Below, piece after piece: positions 11,863 through 59,794 of a stretch of 64,000 nucleotides of DNA. The stretch comes from Thermosediminibacter oceani DSM 16646 (GTDB taxonomy: Bacteria; Bacillota; Thermosediminibacteria; Thermosediminibacterales; Thermosediminibacteraceae): positions 620,001 through 684,000 of the forward strand of contig NC_014377.1 in assembly GCF_000144645.1 (NCBI RefSeq). Direction: 5' to 3'. The translations under genes and the position numbers were made by a program. Numbering within the stretch: position 1 is the stretch's first letter; every line of letters starts with the position of its first letter. The notes beneath the pieces are model-generated. The model searched no databases and had not been told where the DNA came from. It saw only the letters and a list, made by a program, of their open reading frames with translations.

Positions 11863-12393
11863 TTAGTTCACCAGGGAGTCCAGAATCTGTTTGGTAACCT
11901 GCCCTTCTATTCTAGCCTTGATCACCCCGTCTCCGCCGGCTACCACCGTGGTCGGGACCCCTCTTATGAGATAGGACCTTACGGTTTGGGCACTATCATC
12001 CTTTAAAACCGTGAAAGTGTATCCCTTGTTTTTGATGTAGGTTGCGACTCTTCCGGCATCCCTGTCCAGGTTTATCATAAGGATCGCTACATTTTCCGGT
12101 TTGGTGGCGTTGAATTCTTCGAAGTCGGGCATTTCGGCGAGGCAGTAAGAACAGTTGAGGGACCAGAAGTTCAGGACTACCGTTTTCCCACGGAAGTTTG
12201 AGAGCCTTACTTTCCTGCCGGACAGGTCAGGGAGTTCGAAGTCCGGGGCTAAAAAGCCTTCATAGGGTTTTATTTCGGGTTCCGGGTTGGCAGTTTCGAC
12301 TTTCGTTTTCCCACAGCCTGCAAGGTAAAGCGTTATAAATACGATAACAGTCAGTAGGCCAAAGGTCTTAGACTTTTCCGGAAACGACCTCAT
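11863..12393 (-). CDS. TlpA/ResA-type thioredoxin-fold lipoprotein
   Basis: An extracytoplasmic thiol-disulfide reductase anchored by lipid. The 176-aa protein has a signal peptide with lipobox LAGC (Cys27), then a thioredoxin fold with active site CSYC (Cys81, Cys84) in FWSLNCSYC and the cis-proline loop GVPTT (Pro147). ATG at 12393 is preferred to the adjacent GTG because GGAGG lies 6 nt upstream. It follows ccdA by about 85 nt on the same strand. CcdA normally delivers electrons across the membrane to such ResA/TlpA proteins, so the two form a redox pair, probably for cytochrome c maturation or disulfide reduction. Confidence 0.92.
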   Translation of the reverse strand: MRSFPEKSKTFGLLTVIVFITLYLAGCGKTKVETANPEPEIKPYEGFLAPDFELPDLSGRKVRLSNFRGKTVVLNFWSLNCSYCLAEMPDFEEFNATKPENVAILMINLDRDAGRVATYIKNKGYTFTVLKDDSAQTVRSYLIRGVPTTVVAGGDGVIKARIEGQVTKQILDSLVN

Positions 12394-12479
12394 CACTTAC
12401 CTCCTAACGGAAACTTATTCATGGAAGACAAAAGGAAGACATTTCAGTACAAGTGGGAGAGTCCTGCCGTCCGCGAATT

Positions 12480-13147
12480 TTAAAGCCAGTTAAGAAAAAG
12501 TAGCGTTCCCATCAATATAAGGATGGCTCCCGCGGCTTTCTGAAAGAGGGTGAGGTACGGGTTGATCCGGGGTGCGATGGCGTTGACCCTTTCGGCGGCC
12601 AGGGCCAGTAGAAAAAAGGTAGAGCGAGGCCTGCGGAGAAAATGAGAAGCAATACAGCGCCGGCTTTAAAATCCTGTGTGCTGCCGGCCATCAAGAGAAC
12701 CGACGACAGTACCGGCCCCAGACAGGGCGTCCAGCCCAGAGAAAAGGCGCACCCCATTATAAAAGCGGAGAGCGGCGTTACTCTCCGAAAATGCGGGTGG
12801 CCCCGCCTTTCCCTCATGAAGAAGGGGATTTTCAGGGCGCTGACGAGGAACAGCCCGAAAATTATTACAAAAATACCCGCAATTCTCGAAAGAATAATTC
12901 GGTTAACCAGTAGGAATTGACCCAAGGCGGTTACCGAAAGCCCAAGTGAGGTGAAAATCAGGGAAAAACCGGTAATAAAGCATATGCTGTTGGTGATTAG
13001 GACCGCCCTTTTTTCGAATTTGCTGATACCACCGCCGGCCAGAACGGAAAGATACGCGGGCAGCAGAGGTAGCGTGCAGGGGGAGAAAAAGGTCAGAATA
13101 CCTGCCAGGAATGCGGTTCCTATGCTCAGGTTGCTGATTTGCGCCAT
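12480..13147 (-). CDS. ccdA: CcdA-type thiol-disulfide interchange membrane protein, frameshifted near its C-terminus
   Basis: Membrane electron carrier of the CcdA/DsbD family with the paired cysteines in SPCTLPLLPAY and GWTPCLGPVLSS. The zero frame runs to 12512 but after ALPFF turns into an unlikely Pro/Ser-rich tail (YWPWPPKG...). Reading in the -1 frame from the A6 run at 12612-12617 (U6 in the mRNA) restores a normal CcdA ending, LLALAAERV...LLFLNWL, with a TAA at 12480-12482. The junction reads CCU-UUU-UUC, a canonical U-UUU-UUC slippery heptamer in the correct phase. So it is a -1 programmed frameshift, a real mutation, or a one-base homopolymer sequencing error. Confidence 0.85.
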
Positions 13148-26865: not shown

Positions 26866-28014
26866 ATGAAGGTACTAATTGCACCTGATTCCTTTAAGGG
26901 AAGCCTTACTTCACTTCAGGCGGCAAATGCTATGGAAAGGGGCGTCTTGAAAGCAGCGTTCAGCGCCAATGCGGTTGTGGAGGTATATAAAATCCCGATG
27001 GCCGACGGCGGGGAGGGCACCGTGGAGGCAGTAATCTGTGCCGCGGGTGGGAGAATCGTAAAAACCCGGGTTTTAGACCCGCTGGGGAGGACAATCAATT
27101 CTTTTTTCGGCGTGCTCTCGGACGGTACCGCCGTAATAGAGATGGCCGCGGCTTCGGGGTTGAACCTTTTGAAACCCGGAGAAAGAAACCCCATGGTGAC
27201 CACCACTTACGGCACCGGCCAGCTTATAAGGTCGGCGCTTGATCACGGGTGCAGAAAACTCATAATAGGCATAGGCGGCAGCGCTACCAACGATGGTGGC
27301 GTAGGCATGGCTCAGGCCCTTGGCGTAAAGTTCCTGGATGCCGAAGGTAAGAATATAGGTTTTGGAGGTGGTGAACTTTCAAAAATAGAGAGGATTGATA
27401 TTTCGGGACTTGACCCCAGGGTAAAAGGAGCCGATATAGTTGTAGCGTGCGATGTGAAAAACGTGCTGTGCGGTCCGCAAGGTGCGTCGGCGGTTTACGG
27501 ACCTCAAAAGGGCGCGACGCCGGAAATGGTCGAAATTTTGGATGAGAATCTCAGACACCTTGCAGAAGTGATAAAAGTGGACCTTGGAAAGGATATAGCT
27601 GAAGTCCCCGGTTCCGGTGCAGCGGGTGGCCTCGGGGCGGCTTTAATGGCTTTTTTAAATTCAAAGTTACGGCCGGGAATAGAGATTATGATGGATATAA
27701 CGCATTTTTCTGATAGAGTTTCGAACGCGAACCTGATAATTACAGGAGAAGGTTGCACGGATTACCAGACCCTTTTCGGCAAGGTGCCCTTTGGAATTGG
27801 ACAGGTTGCGAAAAGGTTTAATAAGCCGGTGATATGCATTTCCGGCTCTCTTGGAGAAGATTATGAGCAACTTTATGATGCGGGAATCACGGCATTGTTC
27901 AGCATAATAAATAGACCCATGACGCTGGAAGAGGCCATGGAAAGGGGGGAAGAGCTGCTCGAGAAAGTTTCCGAGAACGTATTCAGACTATATTTGAGTC
28001 GGGAGGTAAGATAA
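26866..28014 (+). CDS. glxK: Glycerate kinase
   Basis: Phosphorylates D-glycerate with ATP (GlxK/GarK family, normally giving 2-phosphoglycerate). The 382-aa protein carries the family start IAPDSFKGSLTSLQAANAMERG, MADGGEGTVEA, GIGGSATNDGGVGMAQALG, GSGAAGGLGAALMAF and ITGEGCTDYQTLFGKVP. CGGAGGTC precedes the ATG. It directly abuts the GntP permease gene, forming a glycerate or sugar-acid uptake-and-use unit, with the CdaR regulator next. Confidence 0.95.
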   Translation: MKVLIAPDSFKGSLTSLQAANAMERGVLKAAFSANAVVEVYKIPMADGGEGTVEAVICAAGGRIVKTRVLDPLGRTINSFFGVLSDGTAVIEMAAASGLNLLKPGERNPMVTTTYGTGQLIRSALDHGCRKLIIGIGGSATNDGGVGMAQALGVKFLDAEGKNIGFGGGELSKIERIDISGLDPRVKGADIVVACDVKNVLCGPQGASAVYGPQKGATPEMVEILDENLRHLAEVIKVDLGKDIAEVPGSGAAGGLGAALMAFLNSKLRPGIEIMMDITHFSDRVSNANLIITGEGCTDYQTLFGKVPFGIGQVAKRFNKPVICISGSLGEDYEQLYDAGITALFSIINRPMTLEEAMERGEELLEKVSENVFRLYLSREVR

Positions 28015-58383: not shown

Positions 58384-59556
58384 ATGAAATTTACCCTGTA
58401 CAGTGTTTTTACGAAGGCGTTATTCATGGATGCTATTATTATACTTTATTTGTTCGCACACGGTTTGAACGTTACCCAAATAATGTTCCTGGAGACCTTT
58501 TCAGCTTTAACCATAACTTTCTTTGAGGTTCCGGGTGGCGCTGTAGCGGATAAGTTTGGCATAAAATACAGTTTGTTTTTTGGAGCATTTTTCCAAGCGA
58601 TTGCAGTCATATTTTTTATAATCGGTCAAAATTATCTATTCTTTGTTGTCGGGATAGTGATATTTTCGATTGGAGCTACTTTTATATCGGGTGCGGACAA
58701 CGCTTATTTGTATGACTTTTTAAATGAAAATAATATGAGAGATAAGTTTCAACAAATTGACGGCAGCATAATGTCATGGGTTTATTACGCTATGGCGATT
58801 ACTTCTCTGACAGCAGGTTTTCTATATACGAAAAGCATCTATTATCCTTTATATCTCACCTTTATATTCCTAATATTCCATCATTGTTGGCGCTCGGTCT
58901 GGCAAATATAAGTTTGGAAGGCGAAAAAACCGGAAGCCAAGTTGTCCTATTCTCAAATCATCGAAGAAAGCGGAAAATTTATATTTAAAAACGCCGACAT
59001 ATTATTCTTGTCCCTCTTTTCTATTGGAATTCTATCCTTTATACATTTGGCCAAAAACATCGAACAGACATATTTATATTTAAATAAAGTGCCGCCGCAA
59101 TACTTCGGAGCGCTGGTATGTATTTTCAATTTGACTGCATGATTCTTTTCCAGAAAAAGCAGGCAGATAACCGATTTGTTTAAAAATGAAGGCCAGCTTT
59201 ATATATGTATAGCATTGTTCCTGTTTATAATATTGATGAGTCAAATTAAGTATTTGTATTTCAGCTTGCCTTTGCTTTTAGTTTTCTATGCAATTAGAGG
59301 TATAGCTTCCCCTTATATCTTCAGACGCCTGAATGAGTCCATTATTTCGAAAATACGTGCCACGATACTCTCTTTTCACAATTTATTGATGGGCCTTTTT
59401 GTAGCCGCTTCGGCCCCTCTGCTGGGGTTTTTTACGGATAGATCGGGTATATATTATACCTATCTCGTAATGCCGCTGAGTTTCTTATGCCTGATTGCCG
59501 TTATTTCTCTTTTAAAGTCGAAGAAATTAAAAATGTTGGTTTTTCGGGCGGATTGA
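58384..59556 (+). pseudogene. MFS transporter, disrupted by frameshifts and a nonsense codon
   Basis: About 390 codons of a 10-12-helix MFS permease starting MKFTLYSVFTKALFMDA and with the motif-A-like GGAVADKFGIKYSL. Two compensating shifts between about 58868 and 58935 (IPSLLALGLANISLEGEK is in the +1 frame) and an in-frame TGA at 59140-59142 break it. The C-terminal third (LLLVFYAIRGIASPYIFRRLNE...) is still open. Belongs to a decayed AT-rich transport block. Confidence 0.78.
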
Positions 59557-59617
59557 AATGGCGGTTTATATTAAAGACCAGAATAGGTAGCTATAAGAAA
59601 GAAAAAAAGAGTTGAGA

Positions 59618-59707
59618 ATGAAAAAAGGTGATGAAATAATAGCTTTTGTTAACGATATTCCGATTTATAAAAATGAAGTGGAATATAGAAAAGATTGGCA
59701 GAAATAG
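59618..59707 (+). pseudogene. Possible SurA/foldase-like N-terminal fragment
   Basis: 29-codon frame MKKGDEIIAFVNDIPIYKNEVEYRK. VN-x-x-PIYK-x-E resembles the N-terminal SurA-like domain of foldases; similar-looking residues continue in another frame to about 59790. Very tentative. Confidence 0.25.
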
Positions 59708-59794
59708 CCTATGGAAGCAGAGACAATGAATTTGTAGATTCCTTTGCTGCAATTTTTGCTCTTTTTTTGTTAAAGTGGAAGGGAATTTTACCTC

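Follow-up and report, generated by a model that had tools for sequence, protein, structure and literature searches.

The membrane redox gene ccdA of Thermosediminibacter oceani DSM 16646 loses its reading frame exactly at a slippery heptamer, which raises the question of whether the gene is read through a -1 frameshift or has lost a base and, if so, whether the base is missing from the organism or only from its genome record. We analyzed a window of 64,000 nucleotides around this locus (contig NC_014377.1, positions 620,001 to 684,000; positions below are those of the window unless a contig is named; Table 1) and compared it with the sister species T. litoriperuensis DSM 16647, its nearest relative (hereafter the sister). 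Translated from its ATG at 13147 on the minus strand, ccdA remains recognizable as a member of its family up to the residues ALPFF and then ends out of frame (...ALPFFYWPWPP...SLY) at a stop at 12514-12512. The codons across the break are CTA CCT TTT TTC TAC, which places the TTTTTTC heptamer (12617 to 12611 on the minus strand, its T run at 12612-12617 being an A run on the plus strand) in the correct X_XXY_YYZ phase. Translation in the -1 frame from the heptamer yields FFLLALAAERVNAIAPRINPYLTLFQKAAGAILILMGTLLFLNW, an ordinary last helix, and this C-terminus is 82% identical to that of the sister (query residues 177-221). A preliminary description of the locus had reported the same course of events, namely a normal CcdA up to ALPFF followed by nonsense, a heptamer in the phase required for shifting and a last helix restored by a -1 shift, and our translations agree with it on each of these points. 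The further stop that it described is also present, at 12482-12480, although it lies 32 nt past the zero-frame stop and not 30 nt. The frame break at the heptamer is real in the genome record.

Table 1. Features of the ccdA locus, in window coordinates.
Feature	Coordinates	Strand	Basis
Zero-frame ORF of the broken ccdA	12512..13147	minus	Translation, 211 aa, stop codon within the coordinates; Pfam DsbD_TM PF02683 match
T_TTT_TTC heptamer, in phase, at the break	12611..12617	minus	Sequence read
Segment in the -1 frame that encodes the normal C-terminus with the last helix	12480..12617	minus	Stop 12482-12480; translation and sister match
End of the zero-frame ORF past the break, out of frame (YWPWPPKGS...SLY, then stop)	12512..12610	minus	Translation
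AhpC-TSA/thioredoxin-like gene, next on the same strand as ccdA	11863..12396	minus	177 aa from a GTG start; match to the AhpC-TSA profile of Pfam (E 3.5e-23)

The zero-frame product matches the DsbD_TM profile with an E-value of 1.9e-20 and 73.6 bits (curated cut-off 27.1). This match spans residues 9-179 (profile to position 179 of 219), and the C-terminal helix is not completed in frame; in the sister CcdA, the match reaches residue 216 (profile position 213). Two cysteine-containing motifs, FFSPCTLP and GWTPCLGP, are retained in the zero frame, and we take their cysteines to be the redox cysteines of the protein. A single-base loss at the junction of the proline codon and the run of six Ts would bring translation out of frame ahead of the last transmembrane helix, and the zero-frame product would therefore carry both cysteine motifs followed by a nonsense tail of 32 residues, presumably at the cost of its function. 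The adjacent thioredoxin-like gene is, we assume, TlpA/ResA-like. In addition, the genome encodes a second, intact DsbD_TM protein (C1:710962-711489) that is about 31% identical to the broken CcdA and has a counterpart in the sister (contig C5). This second gene could cover the loss of ccdA, which may thus be tolerated.

We then surveyed 26 genomes of the class, 16 of which gave any match to CcdA. Strong matches (E 1.9e-44 or lower) were counted as orthologues and were found in 14 other genomes, leaving aside as weaker the match in G024 (E 3e-8), five rows from paralogues (E 1e-23 to 1e-26) and a fragmentary second match in G003. In all 14 orthologues, including that of the sister, which together with T. 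oceani makes up the sample of the genus (2 genomes), a single open frame runs through the site; only in T. oceani is the match split (residues 1-181 and 177-221) among the 26 class genomes. As far as these genomes indicate, the frame break is private to T. oceani. The orthologues read CCN at the site, followed by TTT TTT, TTT TTC, TTT TTA, TTT TTG, TTT ATG, TTT ATA or TTC TTT. None of the 14 carries T_TTT_TTC there, and 5 of them have another in-phase T_TTT_TTN that is decoded without a shift (T_TTT_TTT in L007; T_TTT_TTA or T_TTT_TTG in L005, L006, L008 and L013), which suggests that such heptamers stem from Pro-Phe-Phe/Leu codons. The programmed frameshift that the preliminary description had considered does not withstand this comparison: conservation had been set beforehand as its test, and the shift and the U6C heptamer are each conserved in 0 of 14 orthologues.

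The ccdA region is 87% identical to that of the sister over 801 bases, and in the alignment a gap of a single base falls on the wobble position of the proline codon that precedes the T run. The run itself consists of six Ts in both species. Because the runs are equally long and the gap lies one base before them, a homopolymer undercall needs an extra substitution in the T. oceani lineage, and plain shortening of the homopolymer is, from the alignment, not the simplest account of the gap. Of the earlier suggestion, a base missing from a homopolymer of six, the missing base is thus retained as the better reading, whereas its placement within the run is not. Small indels between the two species are many in this alignment (C9), and by our own reading the ccdA gap alone is intragenic in both, uncompensated and away from gene ends. 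Across the three codon positions, changes relative to the sister number 11/6/31 in the 176 codons preceding the break; the 43 codons that follow, taken in the -1 frame, have 6/2/11. The corresponding NG86 dN/dS ratios are 0.188 and 0.177, the latter from only 43 codons. The C-terminal -1 frame shows no decay, and constraint is intact on both sides of the break. From the equal ratios, we infer that the loss is recent or exists in the record only; a bypass of the frameshift fits them equally well.

No recoding signal was detected around the heptamer. With a folding tool that does not predict pseudoknots, the 81-nt stretch downstream of it forms no more stable a structure than shuffled sequences do (z +0.66, 145 of 200 shuffles at least as stable), and the same holds for the sister at this site (z +0.73). 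Inspection by eye found no Shine-Dalgarno core (GGAG, GAGG or AGGA) upstream of the heptamer in TTCTCCGCAGGCCTCGCTCTACC. The rarity of the heptamer, considered as evidence of recoding, was dropped: 50 greedy ORFs from the window contain 7 in-phase TTTTTTY sites, the one in ccdA and six others, and 49 from the sister stretch contain 8. When single-base deletions were simulated in the sister ccdA, 9 of 403 distinct deletions left a heptamer that was in phase and within reach; 3 of the 9 lie at the present site. A chance of about 2% for a random deletion is mildly surprising when taken alone. The heptamer is nevertheless weak evidence, since a T6 run is a likely place for an indel and T_TTT_TTN is already in phase in those five orthologues. 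We also observed an in-phase T_TTT_TTC (TCTTTTTTCGGC) at nucleotide offset 236 of the ORF at 26866-28011. It has a counterpart at the same offset in a sister ORF whose length is almost equal, and both ORFs are open, which makes this heptamer a natural control against taking heptamers for recoding signals.

Breaks of this kind are not exceptional between the two species. A strict scan over about 170 kb of alignment found a long out-of-phase block in T. oceani for 6 of 137 sister ORFs. Three with short terminal blocks (71, 78 and 91 columns) were set aside as start-site or end differences, and three, ccdA among them, were judged interior, the other two belonging to genes that have diverged further (83% and 87% identity, versus 89%). 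In the reverse direction, 6 of 146 T. oceani ORFs were flagged, two of them at places already flagged from the sister side. With 6 of 137 ORFs flagged and 3 interior, frame breaks of the ccdA kind are a regular feature of the pair. A tblastn scan gave 5 and 3 split candidates, a lower bound because it missed ccdA with the sister query, whose first match ran through the out-of-frame tail. A DNA scan was discarded because returns to frame and start-site differences were mixed in among the ORFs that it flagged (33 of 142 from the sister, 31 of 150 from T. oceani).

Two other loci deserve mention in their own right. At about 59280-59770 of the window, the frame of sister ORF C5:105957-106448 is broken in T. 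oceani, and near 59690 there is another gap of a single base; identity here is below that around ccdA, and this is therefore probably a decaying gene. Outside the window, at about C1 689610-690060, the frame is disrupted in the interior relative to sister ORF C5:94738-95484 (83% identity), and this region is likely a pseudogene.

Together, these observations make us confident that ccdA has undergone a private one-base loss at the junction of the proline codon and the T6 run, and that the heptamer comes from the Pro-Phe-Phe codons and not from an evolved recoding signal. It would be a by-product of these codons whether the deletion is real or an error of the record, and it probably lies at the break by coincidence, without programmed frameshifting. 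We consider it somewhat more likely that the organism itself has recently lost the base than that the consensus is in error. According to the authors of the GeneTack survey, frameshifted genes that do not cluster are either errors or recent indels, those near the 3' end more likely indels (PMC3711429). If the record were in error, the cell's ccdA would be intact and the finished consensus would have dropped one base beside the T run, which we regard as a serious but lesser possibility. A private break without downstream decay at a homopolymer is what such an error would leave, and the genome report (2,280,035 bases in one contig, 88 annotated pseudogenes) lists 454 reads at 25.4x among the data (PMC3035372). 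Its stated error rate of less than 1 in 100,000 still leaves room for some 23 errors at most over 2.28 Mb. However, the data also included Illumina (34.3x) and Sanger (5.3x) reads, the former serving to polish the consensus (PMC3035372), a run of six bases is short, and the equally long run of the sister demands the prior substitution described above.

A real, recent deletion might also be tolerated through low-level -1 slippage on U_UUU_UUC that yields a minor full-length CcdA, in a compensatory rather than an evolved manner. The heptamer lies in the exact phase needed, U_UU.U_UU.C is listed as shifting at more than 0.10% without stimulators in E. coli, and some IS elements use it (PMC4066793), so some slippage at the ccdA site is plausible. 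Frameshifting over indels is moreover a known class (PMC5009743), and the conserved downstream frame is what a bypassed frameshift would show. Yet recency by itself accounts for that frame, like heptamers are decoded in frame in five orthologues, no stimulators were found in the downstream fold or, by eye, as an upstream Shine-Dalgarno, and the second DsbD_TM gene could cover the loss; we therefore consider compensatory slippage improbable. If it were true, this free-living thermophile would have adventitious compensatory frameshifting and would show by what route indels can persist in free-living cells. Chloroplast atpB is reportedly a further case of compensatory slippage over an indel. An evolved programmed -1 frameshift that yields two forms of CcdA by design can be credited only with the phase of the heptamer and the known slipperiness of the motif. 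It is not conserved even in the sister species, has neither a stimulatory structure nor an upstream Shine-Dalgarno core, and our literature search found no published recoding of ccdA or programmed frameshifting in cytochrome c biogenesis; we hold it to be very improbable. Transcriptional slippage at the T run is also less likely, given that the run has six bases while selection is evident in many genomes at nine (PMC1088944).

Relative to known systems, the T. oceani gene shares with the CcdA/DsbD_TM family (PF02683) the profile match, the two cysteine-containing motifs and a thioredoxin-like neighbor, and differs from it in that the last helix is out of frame in the record. Programmed -1 frameshifting on U_UU.U_UU.C in some IS elements (PMC4066793) involves the same heptamer, phase and direction, whereas at ccdA neither conservation nor stimulators were found and the orthologues need no shift. 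Compensatory slippage in endosymbionts and mitochondria (PMC5009743) resembles ccdA in the indel beside a slippery site, over which low-level bypass is possible, but ccdA shows no sign of bypass. Compared with the nine-base runs taken as prone to transcriptional slippage in many genomes (PMC1088944), the T run of ccdA is short. Another parallel is offered by the singleton frameshifted genes of finished bacterial genomes, recent indels or sequencing errors described in the GeneTack survey, the main text of which does not mention CcdA (PMC3711429): as in ccdA, the break occurs in one genome, near the 3' end, with intact orthologues. Unlike these singletons, the ccdA break happens to sit on an in-phase heptamer. 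Where two Phe codons adjoin, losing a single base next to them can be enough to create a correctly phased slippery heptamer of the textbook type, and phase and heptamer in a single genome are therefore no evidence of recoding.
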